Shown here: one piece after another, positions 18,454-32,940 of the stretch | How positions within the stretch are numbered: the first letter of the stretch is position 1 | Layout of the letters: each line of letters starts with the position of its first letter | Virus record (IMG/VR): IMGVR_UViG_3300013018_000009 | Span: 1 to 35,353 of that record | DNA length: 35,353 nucleotides | Reading direction: 5' to 3' (one strand) | Source of the DNA: a virus | Translations under genes and position numbers: made by a program | The notes under the pieces: generated by a model | Told to the model about the DNA's origin: nothing | What the model saw: the letters and a program-made list of their open reading frames with translations, nothing else | The model's database searches: none

Positions 18454-18838
18454 CTAAGATTTGGCTCGCAATCTTATCTGATAGTTCTTCTACCATTTCT
18501 TCATTACCTTCTTGGCTGAGGAGTTTTTTTCTAAGTTTATTATATTGCTCGTTGCGGACGCCATTTTTAAGTCCGTTCATAGCAATTTCTTTTAGGCGTT
18601 GTTTTGACTCATCACTGCTCTCTACAAGCATTTTTCCTCCGACACCCTGTTCATTTATTTTATCGACATCTTCCTTGTTTGCTTCTTTATTAAGTCCGCT
18701 GACAACATTGTCTATCTTGGAAGCATTCTTTTCTAATTCAGCAACAAAATTATCAACATCGATATCTTTTTCTTCTACGGAGGCGGTTTTTTCTTTTTTA
18801 ATCTGTTTCCACAATTCATCTATTCTTTGTTCGTCCAT
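18440..18838 (-). CDS. Small acidic scaffold-like head protein
   Basis: 132 residues, helical and charged, with K-x-A sites KEKTAS, LEKNAS, NKEAN and SDKIAS. Start ATG follows AAGGAGGGGGAG. It is preceded by the 155-aa acidic protein and followed by the 256-aa scaffold-like protein with an overlap. Short, acidic, coiled-coil proteins in the protease-to-capsid interval are usually scaffold or prohead core. No specific family recognised. Confidence 0.55.
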   Translation of the reverse strand: MDEQRIDELWKQIKKEKTASVEEKDIDVDNFVAELEKNASKIDNVVSGLNKEANKEDVDKINEQGVGGKMLVESSDESKQRLKEIAMNGLKNGVRNEQYNKLRKKLLSQEGNEEMVEELSDKIASQILDGEL

Positions 18839-18851
18839 TTACTCCCCCTCC

Positions 18852-19319
18852 TTAAACGTTATTTACTTCTTCTCCCTGGTCTTCGAAAAACATTTGAATC
18901 TCTTTAGGAAGTCCATCTAATGTTTCATACTTCTGAAAGTTATTATCTCTAACAACTCTCGGATTAGAAAGCAGTTGGAAAGAAGCTAACTTTTCAAAAA
19001 GCTCTTTCTTTTCTGGTGAAGAAAACTTACCAGAAATAGAAGCAACTTTCTCTTTTTGAGCAGAAGATAACTTTCCTCTTAACTCTTCTTCTACTTCTTC
19101 ACTTTCTTCATCACCATCATCGGCTTCGTTATCTTCTGTTCCTTCAATCATTTCTTCTGGATCTTTTTCAGCTTTTGGTTTAGTTTTAGCTTTAGCAACC
19201 TTTTCTAACGCCCTTGCCATAACTTCTTCAGCTAGAGCATCAACTTCTTCAGAAGCGTTCTTTTCCATTTCTTCTTCTTCAGCAATTTCATTTACTAAAT
19301 CTTCAAGTGTACCAGCCAT
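18852..19319 (-). CDS. Acidic prohead core / scaffold protein candidate
   Basis: 155 residues with a strongly acidic centre (about 60-85, rich in E and D) flanked by helices. K-x-A sites are MEKNAS, LEKVAK, KEKVAS and FEKLAS. It lies 12 bp after the protease candidate. Protease, then acidic scaffold, then capsid is the classical order in HK97- and T4-type heads. The C-terminal 40 residues (SNPRVVRDNNFQKYETLDGL) lack such sites and may be the capsid-contacting part. Start ATG has TAAGGAGGTGCC before it. Confidence 0.6.
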   Translation of the reverse strand: MAGTLEDLVNEIAEEEEMEKNASEEVDALAEEVMARALEKVAKAKTKPKAEKDPEEMIEGTEDNEADDGDEESEEVEEELRGKLSSAQKEKVASISGKFSSPEKKELFEKLASFQLLSNPRVVRDNNFQKYETLDGLPKEIQMFFEDQGEEVNNV

Positions 19320-19330
19320 AAGGCACCTCC

Positions 19331-21112
19331 TTAGTTAATAATCTTTTTAATAGCAGTTCCGGCCAGCATATCAACACCTCTACCCAATGATTGCATCGGG
19401 GAAGCGGATGTAACAAATATATTTCCAATATTATTTAATGTATCATATTTTTTGTCAATCTCTTTATATCTATTATACAACTGATCGGTATCATTAATCA
19501 AATCTGAAGTAGATTTTTTTGGTGATACCATTCGGGCCGCTTCTTTTGTTATAACATTGTCATAATTCATTTGACTTAAAGCTTTTTTAATGGCAATCCA
19601 ATCATCTTTTGAATTAGTGGCTCCGATACCTAACATAGCAACTAGGTTGGGGTGCTCTTCAAGGAACTTCATTAACTTGGCATCACTGTCAAAACGACCC
19701 GCGATATCCGATGCTAAATAAGCAGCAGGTACTCCTGCAAAAACTCGACCACCTAAATTAGATGCGGTCTTTTCAAATTCCTTACCTGCTCTTTTCATCT
19801 CACCTAAACCTTTGACGGCGCCAACACTACCGGCGGTCATTACAGGTAATAACCACGGGTGATCTTTGATCTTCTTATCAAGACCTTCTGCATTGTAATC
19901 GGGGACTTGATTTAAGTATCTGTTGTATAAAAGACTGCCAGCAATTATTCCAGGTGTTGCCAGTTGTTCTGGTCTGAATCTCTTTTGTCTGACTTCTTTG
20001 GGTTCTTCTGCTGCCATCTTAATGAGTCTTGGATATAAATACTCTTTGATTGCTGACCTCTCTTTAACATAAGGTATTCCAACTTTAAAGACGTCAAAGT
20101 CTAAATCACCAAATAACGGGTTAAACTTTTTGTTGACTTCTCTTTCTGGAATATCTATATTAAGGATAATGTCGTCAAAGTCATCCGGGTTATGCCCCAA
20201 CTTATTTAAATATATCCTTTGGAATTCTTCCGGTTTTAAAATGATACCTAAAGTTAAAAGAGAAGTTAATACATCATCAATAGGTTTTTCAGAATAAAAA
20301 TCCAAAACCTTATCGGAAATGTTTTTTTCTCTTTCTTTGATATCAGAAAAACCCCTCATTAATTTAGCCGCAATCTGTCCGGCATCATTGGAGATAGTTT
20401 CACCTGGGATCTCTTTTTCAATATCCGCTTTCTTTTTAAAGCCATTCAATACAGAAGCGACCTTTTTTAATGACTTAGCGGTCCTGTCCGCACCAATGTA
20501 GACAAAACTGATATCAAAAAATCTCGGTTTCTTATTTATCATATAAACTTTTCTGCCGTCAGGCAATACTTCACCTTTATGATATTTTATATGATCACAG
20601 TAATCGTTGGTAGTCTTGGCGACATTACCACAGATACTGCAAACATCATATGGAACCTTACATCCCATTGAAACATCCCACATCTTATCATTGTCGATGT
20701 CTGATGCAATCTTAGGGGCTTTATCCCTATCAATCCTAACAATAAGTTCTACCCTATGCATTCTCGGATTGAAGTGGGCAAACATTATATCCCCTTTAGA
20801 TTTTTTCGGGTCTTTATTTTTATGATGAGTAAATACATATCCGAATTCTTCGAAGGTCTTATAGTGATCTAATATTTCTTGTTCTTCAAAATAATCAGAG
20901 TTAACATTGTCTCCCCAAATCTCACCACTGCTTACAGCAGAAACTAAAACGTAAACGGAGTCTGGGTCAGACTCGATATTATCTTCAATGTAGTTTTTAA
21001 TCTCATCAGAGATTGTACCAGAAGCCACTTTTTCAAGAGAATCAGAAGGGTCGATCTCCTGTAGTGAAAATTCTTCATCGTTATAATTAAAGTGTATTGT
21101 TTTTTCTATCAA
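19331..21112 (-). CDS. Prohead maturation protease candidate with zinc-finger insert and long C-terminal extension
   Basis: 593 residues, TTG start after AAAGGAGGGGTCAAC. Residues 53-205 look like a herpes/HK97-type prohead serine protease: VLVSAVSSGEIWGDNVNSDY, then THHK with H96/H97 as histidine candidates, VELIVRID, and WDVSMGCKV with S148 as the likely nucleophile (V-S-M-G is the usual context). A cysteine insert follows S148 (C158-x2-C161 and C172-x-H174), probably zinc-binding. The remaining 380 residues are unlike a protease. They carry K-x-A sites (FKKKA, LIKMA, FEKTA, TKEA) and the basic block EEPKEVRQKRFRPEQLA at 369-385. LEKVA30 and LKKVA219 bracket the protease domain, suggesting self-processing. 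Protease identity is by motif and gene order. Confidence 0.65.
   Translation of the reverse strand: MIEKTIHFNYNDEEFSLQEIDPSDSLEKVASGTISDEIKNYIEDNIESDPDSVYVLVSAVSSGEIWGDNVNSDYFEEQEILDHYKTFEEFGYVFTHHKNKDPKKSKGDIMFAHFNPRMHRVELIVRIDRDKAPKIASDIDNDKMWDVSMGCKVPYDVCSICGNVAKTTNDYCDHIKYHKGEVLPDGRKVYMINKKPRFFDISFVYIGADRTAKSLKKVASVLNGFKKKADIEKEIPGETISNDAGQIAAKLMRGFSDIKEREKNISDKVLDFYSEKPIDDVLTSLLTLGIILKPEEFQRIYLNKLGHNPDDFDDIILNIDIPEREVNKKFNPLFGDLDFDVFKVGIPYVKERSAIKEYLYPRLIKMAAEEPKEVRQKRFRPEQLATPGIIAGSLLYNRYLNQVPDYNAEGLDKKIKDHPWLLPVMTAGSVGAVKGLGEMKRAGKEFEKTASNLGGRVFAGVPAAYLASDIAGRFDSDAKLMKFLEEHPNLVAMLGIGATNSKDDWIAIKKALSQMNYDNVITKEAARMVSPKKSTSDLINDTDQLYNRYKEIDKKYDTLNNIGNIFVTSASPMQSLGRGVDMLAGTAIKKIIN
19959..20008. 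repeat. 50-bp direct repeat, copy 2 (in protease candidate gene)
   Basis: Partner of 15930-15979, 49 of 50 bases identical, same reading frame. The flanks diverge at once on both sides, so the duplicated unit is short. Confidence 0.9.
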
Positions 21113-21126
21113 GTTGACCCCTCCTT

Positions 21127-22023
21127 TTATCCATATACTTTTTGTTTAGCTTCTTCGAAAGTCATGTTACTATCTTTCATTGTTTTGGCTAAGTTAACAA
21201 TTTGGTTTTTATAAGCCACATTCTCTCTGGCCATATCATATCCTGCAGTACCTAAGTTCTCAGATACATCTCTAGCAGAGTTAAGAATGTTGTTAACACC
21301 AGAAATTATTCTGTCTTCAGCACCGTTATCTCTTCTATTGAAACTATCCTGGATAGAAGTGACATCTTTAATATTATTAAAGTGCATTGTTCCAGTTCCA
21401 CCAGCTTCTATTTGTTTCATGAACGATTTGACAGCAATAGGATGCTTGGCTAAATCAGGAGCAGCATCATAAAAGAATTTGAACTGTTGCTTTGACTCTG
21501 GATTATCTTCAAATTCCGGGTACCTTCTAATGAAAGCTTCCCAATATTTTTCTTCCTGGTTATTCAATTTGTTTCTAACAGCCTGGTATAAATCTCCGCC
21601 ACCTTTTGCCCCTAAAGAAACTGCACCGGCTCCAGCCATACTCATACCTAACTTCTTGGCGATATCCTTAATCATTTCTCTATCCTCAGGGGATATACTC
21701 ATCATTGATTTAAGTTTATCTTTAGCACTGGCTTTTTTACCCAACATACCTCCGAAACGAGCTTCATCATCTAATTTCTGGTTCATTCTTTCATAATAAC
21801 CTTTTTCAGATTTAAGCTTGTCTCTTTGATATTTATTCATTCTGGCATTTTGGATACCTTTTACAAGTAAACCGGCACCCCCAGCCGCTGCTGCACCTTT
21901 AAGTCCTTTTTTCACTGAGGGTTCATTCTTTTTAATATAATTGACGGTGGCATCTGTCGCATCATTTAATCTGCGGAAAAGTTTTTCGGCTTCTTCGTTT
22001 TTTAAATTAAAATCAAAAGCCAT
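21127..22023 (-). CDS. Head-block protein with one glycine-rich membrane-like segment
   Basis: 298 residues. A basic helical N-terminus leads to a glycine/alanine segment (GLKGAAAAGGAGLLVKGI, about 40-57); a second follows at about 125-145 (LGMSMAGAGAVSLGAKGGG). Between them is GKKAS, the only strict K-x-A site. The C-terminal half is an ordered helical domain with YWEAFIRRYPEFEDNPES and FFYDAAPDLAKHPIAVKSF. It directly precedes the protease gene. It has fewer processing sites than its neighbours, so it may persist in the virion. Portal identity was considered and not supported: it is too short and has no wing/stem pattern. Confidence 0.5.
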   Translation of the reverse strand: MAFDFNLKNEEAEKLFRRLNDATDATVNYIKKNEPSVKKGLKGAAAAGGAGLLVKGIQNARMNKYQRDKLKSEKGYYERMNQKLDDEARFGGMLGKKASAKDKLKSMMSISPEDREMIKDIAKKLGMSMAGAGAVSLGAKGGGDLYQAVRNKLNNQEEKYWEAFIRRYPEFEDNPESKQQFKFFYDAAPDLAKHPIAVKSFMKQIEAGGTGTMHFNNIKDVTSIQDSFNRRDNGAEDRIISGVNNILNSARDVSENLGTAGYDMARENVAYKNQIVNLAKTMKDSNMTFEEAKQKVYG

Positions 22024-22034
22024 TTAGCCACCTC

Positions 22035-22769
22035 CTATTCGATTTCTTCTAATAACTTTTTAGCTTCCTCATCGGACATTCCTTCGATTGTGCTAACTAA
22101 ATTACCTAGATCTTCGTTTTCTTCTTGCTCTTCCAATTCTGAAATTTTACCTTTAAGTTCTGGGGAAGACTGCGCAGCTTCCTTTAAAATCTCGCCAGCT
22201 TCCTCTTCTGTGATGGAATCCAGGAAGTTATTAACTTCTGCTTCTTTAATCATCTCTTCGTTATATACACCAATAGCTTCATCTAACACTTCTGGCTCGA
22301 TACCTGTTACAGAAGCAATCTTTTGTAAGCCGTCAATGTAGAGTTCTTCAGCTGATGCTTGTTTTTCTTTTTTCTTACCTAAAGCTTTATCTGGTCTTAG
22401 TGCGCCCATAACTCCGCCAAAAGCGGCGCCTTGTCCGGCTAATCTTTTTAATTGATTGGCCGAAACATTGCCACCGGTCAACTTAGTACCTAATGCACCT
22501 AATCCAGCTGCACCAGCACCTGTAGAAGCTGCACCAACTAGAGCACCTTTACCTCTTTCTTTTAAAGCTTGTTTCTGTTCATCTGATAATTTGTCAGCGA
22601 GGGCGGCACCTCCGTAACCTAAACCTAATCCAGCAGCTGCAGCAGTGGCTATTTCCTTTTTAGAAAGTTTGCTATTTATGGGGGATCCCCCTCCTGGTAA
22701 AAGACCCGCAACATTCGGGTTAGCAGCAACTTTTTCCATACCTAATTCTGTAATTCTATTAAAATCCAT
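22035..22769 (-). CDS. Tagged internal head protein (15-residue LGMEKVA tag)
   Basis: 244 residues. Residues 1-15 (MDFNRITELGMEKVA) are the shared tag, ending at A15. A glycine-zipper region follows (about 45-125, with AAAAGLGLGYGGAALAD and GAGAAGLGALGTKLTGG). The C-terminal 110 residues are acidic and helical, with KEKQAS, LQKIAS, IKEAE and LKEAA sites. After processing the product would be a short, glycine-zipper peptide, as expected for an internal head protein or a membrane-active ejection protein. Start ATG has AAGGAGGAATACATAA before it. Confidence 0.6.
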   Translation of the reverse strand: MDFNRITELGMEKVAANPNVAGLLPGGGSPINSKLSKKEIATAAAAGLGLGYGGAALADKLSDEQKQALKERGKGALVGAASTGAGAAGLGALGTKLTGGNVSANQLKRLAGQGAAFGGVMGALRPDKALGKKKEKQASAEELYIDGLQKIASVTGIEPEVLDEAIGVYNEEMIKEAEVNNFLDSITEEEAGEILKEAAQSSPELKGKISELEEQEENEDLGNLVSTIEGMSDEEAKKLLEEIE

Positions 22770-22789
22770 TTATGTATTCCTCCTTAAAA

Positions 22790-22818
22790 AGAATTTATGC
22801 GAGAGTTACCCCTCGCAT
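22790..22818 (-). terminator. Weak hairpin between two internal head protein genes
   Basis: ATGCGAG (22797-22803) pairs with CTCGCAT (22812-22818), 7 bp with an 8-nt loop. On the minus strand it is followed by AAATTC and then TTTTT, so the U-run is 6 nt late. An attenuator or mRNA processing site is more likely than full termination. It occupies most of the only sizeable gap (57 bp) in this block. Confidence 0.5.
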
Positions 22819-22826
22819 TTATTTAA

Positions 22827-23468
22827 TTACTCAGTTAAAGCGTCAATGCCAGCTTCAAATAATGCATCAAATGTTTCTTCATCTAATCCATAAGCTGCAG
22901 CTGTTTTTTGCTTTTCTTTTCTCTTTTTATTAGCATAAGCACCAGCAGCACCTAATCCAGCTAATCCAGCGGCACCTAATCCAGCTTTACCTTTGTTGTT
23001 TTTGAGAGCTTGTAGAGCAGAACTACCAGCGGAACCCAAAGCACCTGCACCAGCTTTAGCAGCGTCGCCAGTAAAGCCGGCTACATTTTTAGCACCTCTA
23101 GCAACACTTCTTCCACCTCTTGCTGCCATATTACCTGGATTTTTAAGAGCTTCTTTTAATGCTGCTTTTGTTCCTACACTTTCAGGAGCATTTTTAACAA
23201 AGTCATAAACACCTTTGCCTGCAACGCCAGCACCTGCAGCACCAGCACCTCCACCAATCAATGCAGCTAATTGTTTCTTAGACATTCCGCCATTTTCTTG
23301 CTCTTCAGCAGCCTTTTCTAAAAAGTCATGCAGTTCCATAGCATCTACACCATGTACTCCAGCTACCTTTTCTAAAGAATCAGCATAATCATTAAGACCT
23401 TCCTCATAAGCAACCTTTTCTAAACCTGCTTCTAATACCATATTGATTTCTTCTTGTGTTAAATTCAT
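22827..23468 (-). CDS. Internal head protein, paralogue of the 23489-23938 product
   Basis: 213 residues. N-terminal 55 residues are nearly identical to the next gene upstream: GLEKVA20, SLEKVA36 and FLEKAA54 spaced 16-18 residues apart. The middle (about 68-180) is a long glycine/alanine-rich stretch (IGGGAGAAGAGVAGKG, then GAAGLAGLGAAGAYANKK). The C-terminus repeats the paralogue's ending, FEAGIDALTE against FEKGLEALTE. If all three N-terminal sites are cut, short peptides of about 16 residues are released. Start ATG has AAGGAGGAATACAAA before it. Confidence 0.55.
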   Translation of the reverse strand: MNLTQEEINMVLEAGLEKVAYEEGLNDYADSLEKVAGVHGVDAMELHDFLEKAAEEQENGGMSKKQLAALIGGGAGAAGAGVAGKGVYDFVKNAPESVGTKAALKEALKNPGNMAARGGRSVARGAKNVAGFTGDAAKAGAGALGSAGSSALQALKNNKGKAGLGAAGLAGLGAAGAYANKKRKEKQKTAAAYGLDEETFDALFEAGIDALTE

Positions 23469-23488
23469 TTTGTATTCCTCCTTGTTTT

Positions 23489-23938
23489 TTATTCAGTTAA
23501 AGCTTCTAAACCTTTTTCAAATAAATAATTTAAAGTGTTGTCATCGATAGATGCTTCTTTTTTCTTTTTCTTCGGTTGGAGTGCACCTGCCCCCGCCCCT
23601 ATTAAACTCCCTGCAAGAGAGCCACCTGCTCCAGTTATTGAACTTGCACCGATAGCTTCGCCAACATTAAAATCTGAATCTTTTAAAGCTGAAACTAACA
23701 TTGGAACTCCGCCAGCAACTCCGCCAGCAATTCCACCTCTCCGACCCCATTTTTTCCATTTAGGATCTTCAACATCTTCTTCGGCAACCTTCTCTAAAAA
23801 GTCATGTAAATCCACAGCGTCTACACCATGTACCCCAGCAACTTTTTCTAAAGAGTCAGCATAGTCATTAAGTCCTTCTTCATAAGCAATCTTTTCCAAA
23901 CCAGCATTTAAAATCATATCTAATTCTTCCTGAGTCAT
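23489..23938 (-). CDS. Short internal head protein, paralogue of the 22827-23468 product
   Basis: 149 residues with the same build as its neighbour, but a shorter glycine-rich core (about 68-120: GGIAGGVAGGVPMLVSAL, then AGGSLAGSLIGAGAGAL). Sites are GLEKIA18, SLEKVA34, FLEKVA52 and KKKEA129. The duplication is visible in DNA: 23795-23940 matches 23297-23465 with mainly third-base changes. Start ATG has AAAAGGAGGTACAT before it. Function unknown; likely virion-internal. Confidence 0.55.
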   Translation of the reverse strand: MTQEELDMILNAGLEKIAYEEGLNDYADSLEKVAGVHGVDAVDLHDFLEKVAEEDVEDPKWKKWGRRGGIAGGVAGGVPMLVSALKDSDFNVGEAIGASSITGAGGSLAGSLIGAGAGALQPKKKKKEASIDDNTLNYLFEKGLEALTE

Positions 23939-23950
23939 ATGTACCTCCTT

Positions 23951-24793
23951 TTAAGAGTATAATCTAGTTCCGGGGTGCTTTGACTTTTTCACCTCGAAAG
24001 GATTATCTGTTTTTTTATTCTTTATCTTATCATAATGCTTTTTACTTTTGCTTTTGGTCTCGCCTACAAGTGATGCAACTTCCATAGTTTTAAGTGGGTG
24101 TTTAGCCATCTGCAGGGCAATACCAGCAGCTTTTTCTAAACGTTCGTTCAATTCATCTAATCTCGACTTAATTTTACCATAGCTTGCAACCTTTTGCAAA
24201 AACTCATTTTCCTTATCTACAAGAAAATTCACCTCTGATATGTCAGGAATATTTTCTTCTGATGCAGACTTAATTAATTCGTCTGGTGCACCAGCTTTTT
24301 TAATGGAATAAGCAACTATCTTAGGGTTGTTATTTTGCAACTTGGATTTAATCAACTTCACTAAGTGTGGTTTCTTTTCCATTAATTTGACTTCTAGATC
24401 TGATTTTTCCCTCTGCATATTGCCTATCAATGATTTTAGGTCTTCTATATTAATTGTTTCTTTTTCTTCCTCTTCATCATTAATTGTATAATAGGAATCA
24501 TCAAAGCTCAAATCCGGACTTTCAGTTTTCACATCGGTCTCGATTTGGATGCCTTCAATGTTTTTAGGATCAGCAACATCGAACTCTACTGTCTTATCAT
24601 CTGTAGCCTTAAATAACTTAAGGAATACCTTGACATTAGCCTGTTGGGCGATTCTTGCAATTTCTTCATTATTTAGTTCCTCCCGTTTAGCTATTTCCGC
24701 TATTATATCCTCCAAAAGATTTTGATTGTGATCCTCTCCCACTTTTCGAAAATAAGTTTGAACCGCTTCTTTGCTCAAGTTTTGGTAGTTCAT
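23951..24793 (-). CDS. Head-block helical protein with K-x-A sites
   Basis: 280 residues, acidic to basic along its length, helical, without the glycine zipper of its neighbours. An N-terminal site SKEA10 is followed by LQKVAS near residue 203 and LEKAAG near 220, with IKKAG and IKSAS in between. The C-terminal 45 residues are very basic (KSKSKKHYDKIKNKKTDN) and could contact DNA. The start ATG has GGGGGT 6 nt upstream, inside the 84-codon ORF it overlaps by 107 bp. Confidence 0.55.
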   Translation of the reverse strand: MNYQNLSKEAVQTYFRKVGEDHNQNLLEDIIAEIAKREELNNEEIARIAQQANVKVFLKLFKATDDKTVEFDVADPKNIEGIQIETDVKTESPDLSFDDSYYTINDEEEEKETINIEDLKSLIGNMQREKSDLEVKLMEKKPHLVKLIKSKLQNNNPKIVAYSIKKAGAPDELIKSASEENIPDISEVNFLVDKENEFLQKVASYGKIKSRLDELNERLEKAAGIALQMAKHPLKTMEVASLVGETKSKSKKHYDKIKNKKTDNPFEVKKSKHPGTRLYS

Positions 24794-24941
24794 TTTTTAC
24801 CCCCTTTTTGTATTCTGATTTTATTTTAACATTTTTTGGTTTAAATTTGAAATCTGGAAACTTATTTTTAACCTTTTCAATTGGTTTGATTTCATTAGCC
24901 AATTTTTCCATTCCTAAATTTGTGAGATAATCTTTGTTCAT
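24687..24941 (-). CDS. Short tagged head protein overlapping the next gene
   Basis: 84 codons. Residues 1-15 (MNKDYLTNLGMEKLA) are the shared tag with A15, after a strong AAGGAGGTAACC site. The remainder is basic (KNKFPDFKFKPKNVKIK) and then low-complexity serine/glycine where it overlaps the next gene in another frame. The 107-bp overlap is by far the longest in the window. It may be a real tag plus basic peptide, with the last 30 codons accidental; or a frameshift near the A5G5TA6 run may join it to the 280-aa gene. Confidence 0.5.
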   Translation of the reverse strand: MNKDYLTNLGMEKLANEIKPIEKVKNKFPDFKFKPKNVKIKSEYKKGVKNELPKLEQRSGSNLFSKSGRGSQSKSFGGYNSGNS

Positions 24942-24951
24942 GGTTACCTCC

Positions 24952-25635
24952 TTAATACAATAAAGTATTACCTTGTCTTAGGTATCGTTCTCTATCTTCG
25001 GTTTGTAACTTTAACTTATCATGGAGCTTTTGTTTTTTGGTGTATTCCGGTTTTAATTTCTTCTGCAATTTCTTACCTAAACCAGCACCCAATGTTCCAC
25101 CAGAAAGTGCCCCGATTCCAGTTGATAATGGAGTGTTTAGATTTTTTAGTTTGGATAAACCAATACCTGCCAACCCACCAGCTACACCACCACCTAATGT
25201 TGCTCTCGTGGGTAATTTATTATTCCTTTCAACTCTCTTTTTGTATTCTTTATCTTCTGGGGTTTCGTTTAACTTATTTTGTAACTGTTTTAGTTTATTA
25301 TCTTTATCTACAGGGGTCTCATATTTACCATAAGCTCTAGACATTAGATATTTATCTTGACGATGAGGAACATTTTTCAACCAGTCGTCATTGTTGATTT
25401 TTTTATCAACCTCTTTCCACTGAGGAAGAATTTCTTCTTTCCACTTTTTAAAATCCTCTAATGGTTGTTCATCACCCATTTCCTGAACTACCCTTTTTAA
25501 ATGATCTTCTTCATCAGTGATGTCACTTTGATAAGGCCATTTATGGTGATTGGGATTTAATAGTCCTCCAGCTGCCGAACCATTAGCATCCGCTATTTTC
25601 TCCATACCTAAATTCATTACCACTTCTTTTATCAT
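24952..25635 (-). CDS. Tagged internal head protein sharing a module with the ferritin fusion
   Basis: 227 residues. The tag MIKEVVMNLGMEKIA ends at A15, which supports the ATG at 25635. A helical module follows (QPLEDFKKWKEEILPQW near 55-75), then a glycine zipper (GGVAGGLAGIGLSKLKN, about 145-185), and the end DRERYLRQGNTLLY. The helical module, zipper and ending match the C-terminal part of the EncFtn fusion (26251-27300). This makes it the untethered, tagged version of that module. Soluble N-terminal part, membrane-like zipper. Confidence 0.6.
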   Translation of the reverse strand: MIKEVVMNLGMEKIADANGSAAGGLLNPNHHKWPYQSDITDEEDHLKRVVQEMGDEQPLEDFKKWKEEILPQWKEVDKKINNDDWLKNVPHRQDKYLMSRAYGKYETPVDKDNKLKQLQNKLNETPEDKEYKKRVERNNKLPTRATLGGGVAGGLAGIGLSKLKNLNTPLSTGIGALSGGTLGAGLGKKLQKKLKPEYTKKQKLHDKLKLQTEDRERYLRQGNTLLY

Positions 25636-25636
25636 T

Positions 25637-26239
25637 TTAAATTTTCCCCCTTAACTTCTTCCCAATTAAATTACCAACCACAGCTCCACCTAATGTACCT
25701 AATGCTTTCTTTTTCTTAGAATGTTTCTTTTCGTCATCGACTAACTTATTAGATGCAAGATAACCGCCAATACCACCGAGTGCTGTACCAGGAGTGGCTA
25801 TTGATTTGAGGTTTTGTTTTCTTTTATTCCTTTTTAAAGCATCCTGTAATCTTGCTCGCTGCCCATCTCTGGCATAAGAATTAGTTGCAGAACCAGTACC
25901 ATAAGTAGTTTTCTTTTCCGTTCCCGCCGGAATAAACCCGAATAATTTTTTCTTTGTGGTTTTAACACCTTTAGGAAGTTTCTTTTTAGACATCGATGCT
26001 GCTCTGCTGGCAGAATTAACATCAGATTTAACTTTGTTTCTGATGTAATCATTCATCTTTGCCTGCTGACCCGGTTTTAAATTGTTAAGTTCAATGCTTT
26101 TCTCACCGAGTATCTTTCTGACTTGATCTGGATTGTTTTTCTTAAACTTTTTCATGTATTCTTTTTCAGCTCGGTTTAGGGCCAATTTTTCTAAAGAGCC
26201 TTCTTTGATCAACTGCACTAACTTTTCTTTATTTGTCAT
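25637..26239 (-). CDS. Basic internal head protein with LEKLA propeptide
   Basis: 200 residues, strongly basic (runs such as MKKFKKNNPDQVRKI and KKLPKGVKTTKKKLFG). The N-terminus MTNKEKLVQLIKEGSLEKLA ends in the shared motif at A20, slightly longer than the 15-residue tag. The C-terminus has a short glycine zipper (GTALGGIGGYLASNK and GTLGGAVVGNLIGKKL). High lysine content fits DNA binding in the head. Start ATG has AGGAGGGTAAT before it. Family not recognised. Confidence 0.55.
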   Translation of the reverse strand: MTNKEKLVQLIKEGSLEKLALNRAEKEYMKKFKKNNPDQVRKILGEKSIELNNLKPGQQAKMNDYIRNKVKSDVNSASRAASMSKKKLPKGVKTTKKKLFGFIPAGTEKKTTYGTGSATNSYARDGQRARLQDALKRNKRKQNLKSIATPGTALGGIGGYLASNKLVDDEKKHSKKKKALGTLGGAVVGNLIGKKLRGKI

Positions 26240-26250
26240 ATTACCCTCCT

Positions 26251-27300
26251 TTAATAGTCTAAGTTGTGGCCTTGTCTTAAGTATCTTTCTCTGTCATAAA
26301 GGTTATTTTCTCTTTTATTGACTACTCCTTTTTTATTGTACTTCGCTTTATCTTTTACAAATTTTCTAGCGATGGGACTAGTTGCTAATCCTCCAACCAC
26401 TCCCGTTGCTAAACCACCCACGCTACCGTAAAGTGCTCCAGTACCTGCTCCTGCTAAACCCTTTAATATTTTACCGGGGGTAGATTTACCTTTGGAAGAA
26501 CCTACATAGCCACCAATTCCTAAACCGGCTAACGTCCCGAGGCCAGCACCACCTATACCTGTATTACTTATGTATTCACTTGAATGTTGTGATTTGCCTT
26601 CGGGTAACCATTTGTCATTGGGATATTCTTTTCTTTTAGCTCTTTCTAATTTCTTTTTTAATCCTTGGTATTTACCATCACTGCGTACGGGGTTTTTATG
26701 GTTTTCTTTAATATATTCTTGAAGTTTTTGTTGCAGTTTCCTCTGCCTTTCCCCTTCTGCTTGTTCGATTAAACTCTCAAATTTTTGAACCTTCGGATCT
26801 GACAAAACTTCCTTTTGAAAATTATCCCACCTAGGTTTAATAGTGTTTTTCCATTTATTAAATTTATCTAACTCGCCTTGGTTGATATAATCATTTTCTA
26901 ATTCTCGTTTCAACCCAGCTTCTTCGGTTTCTACATCGGTTAAGTATTCAGTTTCACCCCAATGAGTTTGGTGTGCCAACTTTTCTCTCAACGCCGCTTC
27001 CTTTTTAAGACCATCTTCATTATATTCTGCCATCAGTTCTCCATCCTGGTATAGATATTCATCAATCATATCAGACCACACTGGAGAAATTCTTCTAAGG
27101 TATTCAATACCTATTAATGCATGTTCAATTTCTTCGTGAGCATTATGTAAAACAAACTTTCTTACTAAAGGATTATCTGTCGCTGCTGCTCTTTGGTAAT
27201 ACCAATCGACTGCTTCTATTTCTTCGATTATGGATTGTAGTATTCTGTGTATATCCATATCTTCATTTGAAAGTAATTCATGTGGTTCATGGTAATTCAT
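26251..27300 (-). CDS. Encapsulated-ferritin (EncFtn) domain fused to a phage head-protein module
   Basis: 349 residues. Residues 1-95 closely resemble bacterial encapsulated ferritins: YHEPHELL, then EEIEAVDWYYQRA and HNAHEEIEHALIGIEYLRR. From memory of the Rhodospirillum rubrum EncFtn, ligands E32, E62 and H65 correspond here to E27, E57 and H60, with W33/Y34 and entry-site E26/E29 also kept. Such proteins oxidise ferrous iron and work inside encapsulin shells. Residues 99-110 hold KKEA and REKLA sites, which would cut the ferritin domain free. The C-terminal 240 residues (FNKWKNTIKPRW, glycine zipper, DRERYLRQGHNLDY) match the tagged 227-aa protein. Start ATG abuts the helicase stop after AAAGGAGGAAAA. 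The ferritin call is firm; packaging in the head is inference. Confidence 0.88.
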   Translation of the reverse strand: MNYHEPHELLSNEDMDIHRILQSIIEEIEAVDWYYQRAAATDNPLVRKFVLHNAHEEIEHALIGIEYLRRISPVWSDMIDEYLYQDGELMAEYNEDGLKKEAALREKLAHQTHWGETEYLTDVETEEAGLKRELENDYINQGELDKFNKWKNTIKPRWDNFQKEVLSDPKVQKFESLIEQAEGERQRKLQQKLQEYIKENHKNPVRSDGKYQGLKKKLERAKRKEYPNDKWLPEGKSQHSSEYISNTGIGGAGLGTLAGLGIGGYVGSSKGKSTPGKILKGLAGAGTGALYGSVGGLATGVVGGLATSPIARKFVKDKAKYNKKGVVNKRENNLYDRERYLRQGHNLDY

Positions 27301-28824
27301 TTATTTTCCTCCTTTTGCCAACTTCTCCATGCCTAAATCTATCATTGCTTGTTTTTTCATGTTTCCTCCCATTTGATCGTACACCTGTGATTGTAATGCT
27401 TTTTTCTTTTCGGCAACACTGTCTATCCATTCTTCAACAGAGCGGTTGGGTTTTCTAATGGAACTTAAAAACTTCTTCTCGGGTTCTACTGCTAAATACT
27501 TTTTAATATTTACTTTATCGGCTTTCGAGTTTGCTCTGACCCCTCTACCAATCGCCTGTTTGGTTACTTCTGGGTTCCAGTTAGGGTCAAAAATAAACTC
27601 TTTATCTACATTAGGTAATGATATTCCTTCCTTACCTGTAGGTGATGTAACGAAAGCTTTTGTTTTATTTTTCTTAAAGTTTTCAATCTGTTCATCTTTA
27701 TCTTTCTTTCTCATACCACCGGATATTCTAGATGACGAAACACCTTTTGATTTCAAGGCATCTTGGATAATATCTGCTCCATGCTGGTTATAGTTAGAAT
27801 AAATCATAGACCCAAATTCGCTGTCGTCGTCTTTTAAATCTTCTAATAACCTCTGGGCTTTGGCCGATATTTCGTGACCTTTATCTCCTTTAAGTATAGC
27901 ACCTGGATTGTTTGATGCAACTCTGGCATTTGCTATTGAGCCAAAGAAAGACACGCTATCTCTCTTATCTGGAACAATGTCTCTTTTAACAGCCTTCCTT
28001 ACTGGCCCGGGCAAATCATTCCAGGCATACTTGTAGGCTTTCATTTGTTCTTTAGTCATTGGTACCCTAACTTTTTCTTCTTCAACCTCTGGTAAATCTT
28101 GATCTCCTCGTTCATAATCGAAATAATTTTGGAGATATTCCCTAACTTCATCATCGGGGTCAAATCTTTCTCCTACTGTTTGTTTCTTACCTAAACCTAT
28201 AAAACTTAAAGGACCGAACTTTTTAGTTTCCGGTTTAACATACTTTTTATTAAATTCCGTTTGGTTGTATTTATCTTCACCTTCGATTAAATTAATCAAA
28301 GATGCAACATCACCGGGAGCATTATTCATTGGGGATGCCGTTAAGAAAGCTTTATTTTCCATATTAGGCGACACTTCTTTAATAGCTTTATAAAGGTTTG
28401 TGTTTTGATTTCTAGCGTTGTGTGCCTCATCTACTACCATTGAATTGGAATTTGCCGAATACTTCTCAGGATCTTTTGAAAACAAAGAGTTAGACACTAT
28501 TACATAATCGGCGTTGGGGTCAACTTCTTCACTTCCGGAGTCGATAACTTGAACCGAACTGTCAGTAAATTTATTTATTCCTTCTTTTTCAAAATTTGTT
28601 TTTAAACTTGCTGGAACAACAACTAAAGTCTGTCCAGGTGATTTTTCTTTTAATTTTTCCATAGCGGCTATACTGGTTAAGGTTTTACCTGTACCAGTGC
28701 CATGGGCCACAACCAAAGAATTGTTATCTAAAAGTTTATTGACGGCTCGTTTTTGATAATCTCTTAAATTGACATCATCTTTTAATGCTGCTTCTTTTAA
28801 TAACTTCTTTAATACCTTCTTCAT
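27301..28824 (-). CDS. SNF2/superfamily 2 DNA helicase-translocase with a C-terminal head tag
   Basis: 507 residues from the ATG at 28824 (GGAGGTG 5 nt upstream, stop of amylase overlapping as TGATG). Walker A GTGTGKT is at about 42-48, DEAH at 132-135, FLTASPMNN follows as motif III, and the second RecA-like domain ends with SPTGKEGISLPNVD and QAIGRGVRANS (motifs V and VI). This is a SNF2-like ATP-dependent DNA translocase. The N-terminus KKLLKEAALKDD carries a K-x-A site. The last 19 residues are MKKQAMIDLGMEKLAKGGK, a complete copy of the 15-residue tag plus KGGK. It is likely packaged in the head and may act on phage DNA during or after ejection; that is inference. Tight coupling with both neighbours. 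Confidence 0.85.
   Translation of the reverse strand: MKKVLKKLLKEAALKDDVNLRDYQKRAVNKLLDNNSLVVAHGTGTGKTLTSIAAMEKLKEKSPGQTLVVVPASLKTNFEKEGINKFTDSSVQVIDSGSEEVDPNADYVIVSNSLFSKDPEKYSANSNSMVVDEAHNARNQNTNLYKAIKEVSPNMENKAFLTASPMNNAPGDVASLINLIEGEDKYNQTEFNKKYVKPETKKFGPLSFIGLGKKQTVGERFDPDDEVREYLQNYFDYERGDQDLPEVEEEKVRVPMTKEQMKAYKYAWNDLPGPVRKAVKRDIVPDKRDSVSFFGSIANARVASNNPGAILKGDKGHEISAKAQRLLEDLKDDDSEFGSMIYSNYNQHGADIIQDALKSKGVSSSRISGGMRKKDKDEQIENFKKNKTKAFVTSPTGKEGISLPNVDKEFIFDPNWNPEVTKQAIGRGVRANSKADKVNIKKYLAVEPEKKFLSSIRKPNRSVEEWIDSVAEKKKALQSQVYDQMGGNMKKQAMIDLGMEKLAKGGK
27316..27360 (-). other. Tag-coding segment with its own internal start and ribosome binding site
   Basis: Within the helicase gene, the tag codons (27360-27316) begin with ATG and are preceded by GGGAGGAAAC (27370-27361), a good ribosome binding site at proper distance. 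Reading from here gives a 19-residue peptide ending at the helicase stop. The next codon after that stop is the ATG of the ferritin fusion, in the same frame. So one TAA separates tag from ferritin. Confidence 0.6.
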
Positions 28825-29885
28825 CAATTCACCTCCAGCTTATAGGATTGTCTTTCAACAGTTACTTCATTGAATGTTCTTTCATCTAAACTATTATTAA
28901 TGTATAAAGTATAATTACCTCTTTCGGCGACATATAAGTCGTTGTCAGTGTGTGCGACAACAGGATATTCTTCGGCAAAATATTTTCTAGGTTTAATCAA
29001 TTCATCTATTTTATCTTTGAGTTCGTATTCAAAGTAATCTTCCCAGAAGACTACCGCTGGCTCTTTCTGGAACAAGATATAAGCATACGCCAGTTCTTTA
29101 TTATTGATTATGGGTTCACTTCTTTCGACGTCATGGTTGGAAACAAAATTAACCCTATTAGAGCTGGTCCCTAATGCTTTCATTGAAGATTTTGGATTCA
29201 TACACATTTCCTTCAATTTATAAAACAATGGAAAATTAAACAACGGTAGATCGATGTAATCAGTTAACGCCTCTAGTAAAACATCGTTTCCACTCCAGTA
29301 TTCCCCAACCATAAAATTATTGAATGAGTTAAAAAAATCTTTAACGAAATCCCAACGCATTTCCTTTAAATTGTCTAACCTAAAATTATCAAAACCGATA
29401 TCCTTTAACCAAGTGGCCCATTCGATAAGACCTTTTTTCATATATTCATTGTCATTATAATAACAAATAGTTTCACCAAAAGAACTCCTGGTGTTGCACC
29501 CTCCACAATCTCTGCAGAAATGTTTATAATCTTTTTGAAACAACGAGCTGTCAAACTTAGTGTATGTATCTTTATCTAAACTTGGGTTATATTCTTTTTT
29601 ACCTCCAAGCATATGCCCCATCACAAGATCAGCCATAACGTTGATTCCTTCATAGTGGAATTTATCAATTAAATCTACCAGTTCTTCTTTGGTGCCAAAT
29701 TTAGAATCGAGATTATAATGGTCCTTTATATCATAGCCCATCGAGTCATCACCGGCCATCCCCCTTGAAGGTGGAGGTAACCAGATATCAGTAAACCCTT
29801 TTTCGGCGATCGCGCCAGTTAAAAATGATAATTCATTGTACCAGTCAGAAGGGCAATCCCAATAAAATCCCTGTAGTATTAGCAT
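28824..29885 (-). CDS. GH13 alpha-amylase-family glycoside hydrolase
   Basis: 353 residues from the ATG at 29885 (a GTG at 29888 overlaps the previous stop; no clear ribosome binding site, so coupled). The order of GH13 blocks is intact: LILQGFYWDCPSDWYNEL at the start, DIWLPPPSRGMAG, region I ADLVMGH (G replaces the usual N), region II FRLDN with nucleophile D171, region III MVGEYW with acid E195, region IV VSNHD with D252, and a short beta C-domain (LYVAERGNYTLYINNS). It hydrolyses alpha-1,4-glucan bonds in glycogen or starch. No signal peptide, so it acts inside the cell or the virion. A cysteine group (C124, C127, C130, C141) sits in the small B-domain. No head tag. A metabolic gene within a phage head operon is unusual. 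Confidence 0.9.
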   Translation of the reverse strand: MLILQGFYWDCPSDWYNELSFLTGAIAEKGFTDIWLPPPSRGMAGDDSMGYDIKDHYNLDSKFGTKEELVDLIDKFHYEGINVMADLVMGHMLGGKKEYNPSLDKDTYTKFDSSLFQKDYKHFCRDCGGCNTRSSFGETICYYNDNEYMKKGLIEWATWLKDIGFDNFRLDNLKEMRWDFVKDFFNSFNNFMVGEYWSGNDVLLEALTDYIDLPLFNFPLFYKLKEMCMNPKSSMKALGTSSNRVNFVSNHDVERSEPIINNKELAYAYILFQKEPAVVFWEDYFEYELKDKIDELIKPRKYFAEEYPVVAHTDNDLYVAERGNYTLYINNSLDERTFNEVTVERQSYKLEVN

Positions 29886-29887
29886 CA

Positions 29888-31339
29888 CTAACCACGATCG
29901 TTTTCATATTCTCTGATTATTCGCTTTAATTTTTCTGTCATCTCATCATCTCTCCTTGGAGAAAATGTAGTTATAACCGCTTCGTTTTCTCCCTTTAAGG
30001 CGACATTGGCTTTCTTCATTCTTCTTGCTAATTCACCAATAGTTCCTCCGCCAGCTGCACCTAATAAAGTGTTTCTCGTTTTGTTATCTTTATTTTTTGT
30101 GAGTTTGTTGGCGGCAAAACCTCCAATACCCGCACCTGCTAATCCAGGGGCATATCTTTTAGCATCTGATTTAAAATTATGTTTCCGGGTTCCGAATTCT
30201 CCGGTGCGTTTGTTTTTCTTTAGGTCGATATAGTCAGCTGCTAGTTTTTCGATGGTGGCCTCTTTTTCTTTACCTCTAACTTTATCTCCTAATGTAGCTC
30301 CTAAAGCCCCGCCAACCATTAAACCGCTACCACCTAATGTAACATTACTCATTAAGTGGTCTTTTTTTCGACTTTTCATTAATTTTTTTATACTCTTTTC
30401 AACTTCTTTTTTATATTCAGGGTGATTTAATTCTTTTGCTTGTTGGCTCATTCCTTTAAAAGTATTAAAATAAGGTCTCATTGTTTTATCGTATTTTTGG
30501 TTTAATTTCTTAGCTCCTACTAACCCTAATCCTGCACCGGCTGCTGCACCAACCCCTAAACCAATTTTGGTAGAATTGTCTTTAACCCACTTTTTAGTTT
30601 TGTCTAATTTTGATTCTTCTTCAGCAATCTTGTTCATGCCAAGTTGTACAAAGGCATTCTTTTCTTTGTTTTTAATTTCATCGCCCGCAGCAGCTCCGAA
30701 TAAACCGCCTGCACCTGCTCCGAGACCACCCAAGACGGCATAATTTTTTAAGTCATCTTTTTTCCTTTTTTTAATCATATCTTTCATATAACCCTCAGTC
30801 TTTTTGTTTAATTTTTGACCTTCTCTTCCTAAATTGTTGCCTATATCTCTCAATTTATCATAGGCTTCAAAATAAGGTTTATCGAGATTAGTCAGTGTTT
30901 TGTTTAATTTCTTAGCTCCCGCTAACCCTAATCCTGCACCGGCTGCTGCACCAACCCCTAAACCAATTTTGGTAGAATTGTCTTTAACCCACTTTTTGGT
31001 TTTGTCTAGTCTTGATTCTTCTTCAGCAATTTTGTTCATGCCAAGTTGTACAAAGGCGTTCTTTTCTTTTGGTTTCTTTAAAGCTCCGACACCGGCACCT
31101 AAAATTCCGCCACCGGCACTACCTATAGCACCACCCATAATTCCCGAATGGACCATTTTATTTAACATAAATGGGTCATCAGTATCTGAATTTATTGCCG
31201 ACAATAAAGCAGCGGCAGGTGCTAAACTTTTCATCCCTACATCAGAACCTTTCAAACCATATTCTACCGCATTTTGCAATCTGGGGTGCGACTTTCTTTC
31301 CGCCTCTTTTATCAAAGTCTTCAATATTTCTTTTTTCAT
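29888..31339 (-). CDS. Polyprotein-like head protein with tandem tags and glycine zippers
   Basis: 483 residues. The N-terminus MKKEILKTLIKEA ends in a K-x-A site at 13. Two copies of a 56-residue unit follow, each opening with the tag KEKNAFVQLGMNKIA, then KKWVKDNSTKIGLGVGAAAG and a glycine zipper. Linkers are lysine-rich helices. A further double site, KEKEAT/IEKLAAD, begins the last third (YAPGLAGAGIGGFAANKL). If every site is cut, the protein yields four or so zipper-containing fragments. Membrane-active ejection proteins or internal core proteins are plausible roles. Start ATG has ATAGGAGGATTTAAA; it follows the terminase by 11 bp. Confidence 0.6.
   Translation of the reverse strand: MKKEILKTLIKEAERKSHPRLQNAVEYGLKGSDVGMKSLAPAAALLSAINSDTDDPFMLNKMVHSGIMGGAIGSAGGGILGAGVGALKKPKEKNAFVQLGMNKIAEEESRLDKTKKWVKDNSTKIGLGVGAAAGAGLGLAGAKKLNKTLTNLDKPYFEAYDKLRDIGNNLGREGQKLNKKTEGYMKDMIKKRKKDDLKNYAVLGGLGAGAGGLFGAAAGDEIKNKEKNAFVQLGMNKIAEEESKLDKTKKWVKDNSTKIGLGVGAAAGAGLGLVGAKKLNQKYDKTMRPYFNTFKGMSQQAKELNHPEYKKEVEKSIKKLMKSRKKDHLMSNVTLGGSGLMVGGALGATLGDKVRGKEKEATIEKLAADYIDLKKNKRTGEFGTRKHNFKSDAKRYAPGLAGAGIGGFAANKLTKNKDNKTRNTLLGAAGGGTIGELARRMKKANVALKGENEAVITTFSPRRDDEMTEKLKRIIREYENDRG
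30500..30667. repeat. 168-bp tandem coding repeat, copy 2
   Basis: Nearly identical to 30902-31069, offset 402 bp (134 codons), in frame. It encodes a tag plus helix plus glycine zipper. Most differences are silent or conservative (R to K, A to V), so the duplication is fairly recent. Confidence 0.9.
30902..31069. repeat. 168-bp tandem coding repeat, copy 1
   Basis: Partner of 30500-30667. Includes the tag codons 31069-31025 and the sequence encoding GLGVGAAAGAGLGL. Confidence 0.9.
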
Positions 31340-31350
31340 TTTAAATCCTC

Positions 31351-32940
31351 CTATTTAAATGGTATCTCCTGGTCTATATGTGCTGCAAACTTAGCATAAA
31401 CTGTCGCCTGCATAATGTCATCAGGAGTATCGTGATCGTATTTAAATCTTCTTAATCTATCTGAATACTCTCTTGTTAAAGCAGTGTAATCTTCATAATA
31501 TGCCCTGTCGTCAGCTTCTTTTCTTTCCATGTACTCAAAGGGTGGGAAGATTAACTGCTGGTTCTGGATTGGAAATATGACAGAATCCATAGCTTTGGTT
31601 CTATTGGTTACATACATTATTTGTTCCGGTTTCCAGTTCCAGGTTTGTTTCTGATTACCACTATGATAGATTTCCCAGACCTTGTCATAACCACCTATTC
31701 TCCTTTGCAGTCTTAAATTTTCCTTATGACCGGCGCCATGGTCGCAGGCCATAATGTTGCATCTGAAACGGTGATACATTTTTTCTAATTCATCTAATAC
31801 ATGGTCAGGATCAGCGGATTCTTTGTGATCGAATTTTTTAATATGTACTACGTGAAATTTGCCGTCTATGAAACCTCCAACGACTGCCGCATTAAATGAA
31901 CCTTTGTTTTCTCCCCAGTCAACCCCCATATATAATGGGTTTTTCTGGGTTTTATCAAAATCTGCTTTTTCAAGCCAAAATCCTGTACAGGTATTTTTTA
32001 TTTTAGAAATTGAAATAGGTTTATCGGCCGAGTCATAACTTAAACCAAAAACCTCATTGTATAATTTATCTTCAGGATACTTCAAAAATTTGTCATAATA
32101 AAATTTTTCCCATTTCTTTGGTTGAGTTAATCTGCCGGTTTGCAGCTGTGATATATGGAAACCTGCTGTTCTATTTTCCGGTGCTAAAGAATACCATTGA
32201 CCGTTTCTAGTATCTATTGGTTTGCCACAGTTTTTGCAGACTAAACCTTTTTCGGTAACCATCTTTTCTGGCTCTGTATCCATACGGTTGTATGTATTAC
32301 AGGACTTACATGGCACTATCCAGATGTTTTGGGTAGACTGCTGCCACAACTTCTCTAAAGGATTGTCAAAAGTTTTCGGGGTACCACAGGCGGCGAATAT
32401 CTGATATTCACTTGCTGTTAGAGTCTCTTTTAAGACTGGTATGTTATCCGAAAGCATGTCCTGGTACTCATCAATATTTAACATATCCCCAGACAATCCA
32501 CGCATAGTGTCAGCTGTATGGTAGGCATATCCCAAGAATATTGTGGCATTATTAATTAAAGTTTTTTCAAAGACTTGGTCGGTGGTTGTTTTATCTAAAT
32601 AATATTTTTGTATAAAATCTGATGATCTGATTGATTTCCTTAATCTATCATTTGAAAATCGTCTCGTCTGTTTCGAAGTAGGTGAAACATAAATCGAACG
32701 AAAGTAAGGTATTAAAGATGAGTATGTAATGTGTCTGTTGGATAAAGTTGTTGATTTCTCTACTTGACGAGCTGTTCTTAAAACCAAAGATGAATAGAGA
32801 TTATCATAAATCGGATAGAGGTACTCCCTCCAATTCCACTTTCTACCTGGTCTTTCATCTTTGAATTTAAATTTCTGCCCTTCGATGGGTATAAATGCTT
32901 TAGTAAAATCGGATGGTCTAACTGATAACTTCTTTTTCAT
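31351..32940 (-). CDS. terL: Terminase large subunit (DNA packaging ATPase-nuclease)
   Basis: 529 residues. ATPase: TARQVEKSTTL (56-66) is the Walker A-like loop, with E where glycine is usual, and MLNIDEYQDM (153-162) is Walker B with catalytic E158. A zinc ribbon (CKSC then CKNC, about residues 218-248) resembles lambda gpA-type terminases. Nuclease: acidic residues in MGVDWGENK (about 338-346), ACDHGAGHK (about 396-404) and DTPDDIMQA (about 500-508) give the RNase-H-like triad. It pumps DNA into the prohead. First gene of the minus-strand operon; start ATG has AAAAGGAGGTACTTTAG, promoter at 32961-32989. No small terminase gene is next to it. Confidence 0.93.
   Translation of the reverse strand: MKKKLSVRPSDFTKAFIPIEGQKFKFKDERPGRKWNWREYLYPIYDNLYSSLVLRTARQVEKSTTLSNRHITYSSLIPYFRSIYVSPTSKQTRRFSNDRLRKSIRSSDFIQKYYLDKTTTDQVFEKTLINNATIFLGYAYHTADTMRGLSGDMLNIDEYQDMLSDNIPVLKETLTASEYQIFAACGTPKTFDNPLEKLWQQSTQNIWIVPCKSCNTYNRMDTEPEKMVTEKGLVCKNCGKPIDTRNGQWYSLAPENRTAGFHISQLQTGRLTQPKKWEKFYYDKFLKYPEDKLYNEVFGLSYDSADKPISISKIKNTCTGFWLEKADFDKTQKNPLYMGVDWGENKGSFNAAVVGGFIDGKFHVVHIKKFDHKESADPDHVLDELEKMYHRFRCNIMACDHGAGHKENLRLQRRIGGYDKVWEIYHSGNQKQTWNWKPEQIMYVTNRTKAMDSVIFPIQNQQLIFPPFEYMERKEADDRAYYEDYTALTREYSDRLRRFKYDHDTPDDIMQATVYAKFAAHIDQEIPFK

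Follow-up and report, generated by a model that had tools for sequence, protein, structure and literature searches.

A GH13 alpha-amylase gene in a phage genome

A phage contig of 35,353 bases (IMG/VR virus record IMGVR_UViG_3300013018_000009, below called the window) encodes on its minus strand a 353-aa protein (28824-29885, ATG at 29885, stop TGA at 28826-28824) that, by sequence and predicted fold, is an intact GH13 alpha-amylase. It belongs to a subfamily in which the calcium-zinc centre of related amylases appears to have been replaced by a four-cysteine (Cys4) site. As the best explanation overall, we find it reasonably probable that a phage acquired a cytosolic Cys4 alpha-amylase which cuts host glycogen or maltodextrins late in infection.

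The plus strand across 28824-29885 is dense in stops and the frame is open on the minus strand only; an alternative GTG start at 29888 would give a protein of 354 aa. Two other phage contigs hold 97-99% identical copies at the same place. Purifying selection acts on the amylase in two phage lineages: the ratio of nonsynonymous to synonymous substitution rates (dN/dS) is 0.09 and 0.13 between the window and the two sister copies (L002 and L003, respectively), 0.11 between these copies, and 0.05 between L098 and L099 from other phages. A chance open reading frame (ORF) was rejected given the near-identical copies at the same place in two contigs and their dN/dS of 0.09-0.13 to the window. A neutral passenger of recent host origin would fit the fact that near-identical contigs of this phage group number only three here, but dN/dS values of 0.05-0.13 in two lineages and the repeated acquisition described below make it very improbable.

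The protein matches PF00128 in Pfam above the cut-off (5e-15). It also matches the NCBIfam alpha-amylase equivalog NF006970 (PRK09441.1-3) with 265.5 bits and an E-value of 7.7e-79, below the curated cut-off of 516 bits; no PHROG family matched it at E<=0.1. The nearest solved relative is the Pyrococcus woesei amylase (2.2e-43 over residues 2-322), followed by a related variant. An AlphaFold model built from 31 aligned sequences (pLDDT 90.5, pTM 0.90) has the GH13 architecture, comprised of a (beta/alpha)8 barrel, domain B and a C-terminal beta domain, and superposes on the Pyrococcus structure 1mwo with a Z score of 41.7 and an rmsd of 2.0, 347 of its 353 residues being aligned. The best match of the model in a library of viral structures was not a close one (E 6.8e-9, TM 0.52).

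Residues D171, E195, D252, R169, D86 and H91 align with catalytic and region I positions of the Pyrococcus enzyme, and regions I-IV follow in order. Region I is DLVMGH (residues 86-91, 29613-29630, minus strand). On the same strand, D171 in region II (29373-29375) aligns with the nucleophile Asp, E195 in region III (29301-29303) with the acid/base Glu, and D252 in region IV (29130-29132) with the transition-state Asp; their Pyrococcus partners are D198, E222 and D289, which we take to have these roles. The superposition on 1mwo suggests that D171, E195 and D252 meet at one site. We aligned 50 sequences, taking 36 of 80 genome-contig and viral loci plus loci from a whole-genome search, and dropped L100 (identical to L098) and L102 (the same gene as L015) before counting. 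The catalytic triad is complete in all 50, and the six positions (R, D, E and D, with the region I D and H) are intact in 49, the window included. The preliminary description of the window, made from the letters alone, had proposed an intact GH13 amylase with three carboxylates and the proper order of regions; the alignment with the Pyrococcus enzyme, PF00128 and the fold match bear this out.

Catalytic residues do not tell a hydrolase from a transferase. In addition, the Pyrococcus loop GEYYQKGTV is missing, domain C is short, and the NCBIfam score of 265 bits compares with a cut-off of 516. The protein could thus catalyze another GH13 reaction, acting as a 4-alpha-glucanotransferase or a maltooligosaccharide-processing enzyme in maltodextrin recycling rather than glycogen attack. 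Still, the best sequence and structure matches are all alpha-amylases, and we consider such a reaction unlikely.

A putative four-cysteine metal site in place of the calcium-zinc centre

In the Pyrococcus amylase, we take the calcium ligands to be N110, D155 and D164 with the backbone of G157 and G202, and the zinc ligands to be H147, H152 and C166. The available part of PMC5738361 likewise places Cys166 in the zinc site and a conserved glycine in the calcium site, and assigns the enzyme to GH13_7. Domain B of the window protein carries the motif C124-x2-C127-x2-C130-x10-C141 (29463-29516, minus strand), a putative metal site replacing this centre. C124 falls at H147 and C141 at C166, with C127 and C130 on either side of H152. 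The positions of the calcium side chains are occupied by G, T and T, those of the zinc ligands by C, G and C, and the two-metal (Ca,Zn) centre described for the Pyrococcus enzyme of GH13_7 is absent.

The motif C-x2-C-x2-C-x10/11-C is found at the position of this centre in 16 of the 50 aligned homologues, six from phages and ten from bacteria, the latter all of one class. N110, D155 and D164 are all absent in each of the 16 Cys4 sequences. The 34 homologues without the motif keep all three calcium ligands in 25 cases and N110 in 31. As read from the alignment, this subfamily of phages and Halanaerobiales has lost the calcium site and rebuilt the zinc site from four cysteines. The Asn-to-Gly replacement in region I and the cysteines belong together as a single trait, present in all 16 members.

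Both features had been pointed out in the preliminary description (G90 in DLVMGH; C124, C127, C130 and C141 in domain B) and are seen in the alignment. Its suggestion that they may alter specificity needs revision, as both mark the Cys4 replacement of the (Ca,Zn) centre in all 16 members. The Asn found in relatives at the position of G90 is presumably a calcium ligand, and so its loss gives no hint of specificity on its own; the trait would bear on metal and stability, and not obviously on specificity. Lower activity resulting from the same replacement was also considered and rejected, as this is a calcium-ligand position and the catalytic residues are intact.

The site most likely binds a single metal, zinc, because its spacing resembles that of the structural zinc of alcohol dehydrogenase (C-x2-C-x2-C-x7-C) and because the ancestral site held zinc. 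A [4Fe-4S] motif has similar spacing too, and a strictly anaerobic life is described for Halothermothrix orenii (PMC2626281) and Halanaerobium praevalens (PMC3156398). We see a small chance that C-x2-C-x2-C-x10-C binds a [4Fe-4S] cluster instead. This would mean that a lineage of amylases from strict anaerobes and phages carries an iron-sulfur cluster beside the active site in place of the calcium-zinc centre, that alpha-glucan breakdown is oxygen- or iron-sensitive, and that unrelated phages have captured precisely that version.

Relatives in bacterial chromosomes

A scan of genome contigs (best 80 of 552 matches) placed Halonatronum saccharophilum first, with 44% identity, followed by Bacteroidota and others with 31-38%. 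Across 398 genomes sampled evenly from the phylum, one match reached E<=1e-60. The nearest homologues came from the whole-genome search: 11 of the 59 genomes of the class of Halonatronum have a homologue at E<=1e-40, and in seven, which are probably Halanaerobium-like, it is 56-59% identical. The homologue of H. orenii (L112) is 51% identical, while H. praevalens (G244) has none at E<=1e-40. As a group, the Halanaerobiales amylases (L105-L112, L015, L103) resemble the window protein in having 46-59% identity, the Cys4 site, lost calcium ligands and no signal peptide; they differ in being chromosomal host genes, with ordinary, non-phage surroundings where these were read (L015, L114, L118).

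In the tree, the Cys4 proteins form a separate clade (support 100/100) beside rows that include Pyrococcus, the tree being midpoint-rooted and built without other GH13 subfamilies. The clade holds only phages and members of the class of Halanaerobiales. A GH13 phylogeny had been proposed in the preliminary description as the way to find the donor; on this tree, the donor lineage is Halanaerobiales.

The expected substrate, glycogen, exists in the host lineage, as judged from its genes. The glycogen synthase gene glgA is present in 45 of the 59 genomes of the class, including all 11 with an amylase homologue and 34 of the 48 without. One of these 11, genome G427, has glgB, glgD and glgA, and its glgC is split over two ORFs. 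The glycogen synthase of this genome (L140, 6367-8142), located beside the split glgC, has a C-terminal ComEA-type helix-hairpin-helix region (TIGR00426, 1.2e-17).

Probable cytosolic location

The window amylase has no signal peptide: its N-terminus is the first barrel strand, in line with the earlier remark that no secretion signal is present. Reading by eye, we saw none in any of the 16 Cys4 proteins. By contrast, two genomes from the class of Halanaerobiales (G019, G444) encode paralogues that keep calcium ligands, and these do have signal peptides. In particular, H. orenii (G444) has a cytosolic Cys4 paralogue and a second homologue (L113) with a signal peptide, the zinc ligands H/H/C and N110.

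Phage polysaccharide enzymes are commonly depolymerases, and release at lysis is possible without a signal peptide, so the protein could be a lysis-released or tail-associated depolymerase of extracellular or envelope alpha-glucan, such as capsule or exopolysaccharide. However, it is a single catalytic module with neither a tail-protein fusion nor a signal peptide, its closest host proteins are chromosomal cytosolic enzymes, and a Cys4 site without calcium ligands would suit a reducing compartment. We therefore regard a depolymerase as quite improbable. Its tail-borne form was rejected, the single module lying in the head operon without a tail fibre or tailspike fusion.

Recurrence among phages

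Single-protein scans of IMG/VR with the amylase or the large terminase subunit (TerL) recovered only the two sister contigs. An alignment-based search was needed to reach copies in large phages; a second alignment added none. Four further IMG/VR contigs of 77-204 kb carry Cys4 copies that are 53-56% identical, and one contig of 110 kb carries a 40% identical copy that keeps H/H/C and N110. The window TerL was unmatched in all five large contigs (G004-G008), and within 8 kb of the amylase they share no other window protein. Phages occupy three places inside the Cys4 clade and one outside it (L101). The phage label requires three changes on the tree, and none of 200 bootstrap trees gives one. 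Phages have thus probably gained the Cys4 amylase more than once. No amylase-free close relative of the window was found among phages with 27-31% identical TerL, which differ in gene order and have no empty site.

The gene contexts, read by eye, are diverse. One amylase (L097) adjoins an ORF resembling N-acetylmuramoyl-L-alanine amidase, another (L098/L100) has unassigned structural-looking ORFs on one side and an ORF resembling DNA polymerase on the other, and the copy outside the clade (L101) adjoins a FLAP-nuclease-like ORF. The 204-kb contig also has, on reading by eye, three radical-SAM-like ORFs in tandem (L097, 3104-5718) with CxxxCxxC motifs, ca. 2 kb from the amylase.

Genomic context and head-region tags

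On the minus strand of the window, TerL (31351-32940; phrog_675, 5.6e-73) is followed by a 483-aa Gly-zipper protein (29888-31339), and the amylase then comes between the latter and a 507-aa SNF2-type helicase (27301-28824; phrog_62, 2.1e-58) with its own ribosome site, GGAGGTG. The next gene (26251-27300) encodes an EncFtn-like domain fused to a Gly-zipper half. The head operon is defined by a head maturation protease-like protein (19331-21112) and the major head protein (16257-17198), both on the same strand; the tail sheath (12103-13674) lies downstream of the major head protein region. With TerL and head genes on either side, the amylase lies within the head operon as originally described. 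In all three contigs it is flanked by TerL, head and tail genes, while its nearest relatives are chromosomal; a host-derived gene between bona fide phage genes is what is expected of an auxiliary metabolic gene. The one-base overlaps reported on both sides hold in part. Downstream, the ATG of the SNF2 gene at 28824 shares one base with the amylase stop TGA. Upstream, the amylase ATG is 2 bases past the end of the Gly-zipper gene, and a 1-base overlap arises only with the GTG start at 29888.

Of the 15 head-region genes, 13 encode a short tag-like motif, (E/K)K(V/I/L)A; so do three of the 19 others. The amylase has none (0.09 expected), consistent with the earlier observation that it has no head tag. 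The amylase could be a virion component that acts on alpha-glucan early in infection, either exposed or injected after packaging in the head. Its place in the head operon between TerL and the major head protein and its translational coupling to a tagged neighbour, both in all three contigs, would fit this. Moreover, other host-derived enzymes or domains of the operon, the SNF2 helicase and EncFtn, do carry the tag. On the other hand, the amylase is untagged and phage copies elsewhere (L097, L098/L100, L101) have other, unrelated gene contexts, which disfavours packaging. We rate a virion component as unlikely, about as much so as a different GH13 reaction.

Tags such as LGMEKIA or LEKVA are found throughout the head region (17683-31339, minus strand), often near the N-terminus, and possibly represent a signal for prohead targeting or cleavage. 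The motif is also carried by the ORF at 24687-24941 and by the Gly-zipper protein. The latter is shorter in both sister contigs (263 and 259 aa) than in the window (483 aa), where an internal repeat contains NAFVQLGMNKIAEE twice. The SNF2 helicase of the head operon ends in the tag IDLGMEKLAKGGK (C-terminal LGMEKLA), suggestive of a packaged helicase. The EncFtn-like encapsulated ferritin domain (residues 1-89; PF22277, 2.5e-28) is ∼53-55% identical to an encapsulin cargo protein of Halanaerobium-like chromosomes (L140-L143), whose gene adjoins that of a family 1 shell; hidden Markov models confirmed cargo and shell in L140. The fusion protein was unmatched in the phage collection. Recruitment of an encapsulin cargo into a phage head would, if true, be a finding in its own right. 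Among the tail genes, an ORF at 3261-4031 (minus strand) resembles, on reading by eye, a sigma factor of RNA polymerase.

Possible role of the amylase

Purifying selection, the missing signal peptide, the missing tag and the glycogen genes of the host lineage together argue for a late, cytosolic, calcium-free amylase acting on glycogen. Activity, metal, substrate, timing and host are inferred as follows. The phage would have taken an intracellular GH13 endo-alpha-1,4-glucanase from a halophilic anaerobic host lineage, Halanaerobiales. The enzyme would be translated late, together with the head genes, and stay in the host cytosol, where it may break stored glycogen or maltodextrins down to short oligosaccharides as fuel for the last stage of infection. 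Domain B would be held by a single metal bound by four cysteines, most likely zinc, instead of the calcium-zinc pair of secreted relatives, and the Cys4 site would free the amylase from calcium. The preliminary description had left the choice between glycogen as fuel and a virion enzyme; the former remains the best hypothesis, and the latter is disfavoured by the missing tag and the unrelated contexts.

Several observations weigh against this scenario. No clear protospacer or prophage links the phage to a host; apart from the amylase and the EncFtn domain, its DNA gave weak matches over short stretches. The association with glgA is weak, as 34 of 48 homologue-free genomes also have this gene, and is confounded by relatedness. 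Eight cytosolic-looking bacterial rows (L038, L041, L042, L048, L068, L070, L084, L088) keep the calcium ligands, and hence Cys4 is a lineage trait and not a general consequence of cytosolic life. On the tree, one phage lineage after another is sister to the Halanaerobium-type clade, and some transfers may run from phage to host. Finally, the tag pattern was picked after tags had been seen, and the head gene at 21127-22023 also lacks the motif.

If correct, the scenario provides a clean case, open to testing, in which an auxiliary metabolic gene is traced to its donor lineage and was apparently captured more than once by phages of that lineage. Such repeated capture would indicate that stores of alpha-glucan are important when halophilic anaerobes are infected. 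The subfamily would also represent a natural route to a calcium-free alpha-amylase, from a two-metal centre to a four-cysteine site, with both features changed in 16 of 16 members. This could be of use in enzyme engineering and in testing which metal a reducing cytosol selects.

Comparison with known amylases

The Pyrococcus woesei/furiosus alpha-amylase (1mwo, 1mxd; GH13_7), a secreted archaeal enzyme, shares with the window protein the fold, the catalytic residues and 37% identity (MAFFT, aligned part). Unlike it, the window protein has no (Ca,Zn) centre, as N110, D155 and D164 are lost and H147/H152/C166 have given way to Cys4; it also lacks the 9-residue loop and has a shortened domain C. 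The Flavobacteriaceae amylase FSA is a bacterial relative of the Pyrococcus enzyme, placed in GH13_7 in the available part of PMC5738361, but according to that text its (Ca,Zn) centre is conserved at most positions, and it is not of the Cys4 type.

Among 50,697 phage records, we found 11 amylase matches at E<=1e-3, all with identity <40%. Enterococcus phage vB_Efm_LG62 (OP018674) similarly has an unfused GH13 protein, annotated as alpha-amylase-family and encoded outside the tail genes (L014, 8001-9200). However, this 400-aa protein is only 28% identical over half the query, comes from an unrelated lineage and adjoins DNA polymerase and glutaredoxin/NrdH-like genes. Searches of the open-access literature, as far as its text was accessible, turned up neither a Cys4 amylase nor any amylase from Halanaerobiales phages. 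As far as the accessible text goes, GH13 and GH57 alpha-amylases are listed for mangrove viromes (PMC6460857), and a viral GH13 amylase from a landfill virome is near-identical to a Prolixibacteriaceae protein (PMC12607003). Like the gene described here, these have been proposed as auxiliary metabolic genes, but they belong to other host phyla, and the accessible text does not touch on the metal site, a head operon or Halanaerobiales. Viral GH13 amylases have thus been reported already, while the Cys4 variant of the metal site, found in several unrelated viruses, looks new.

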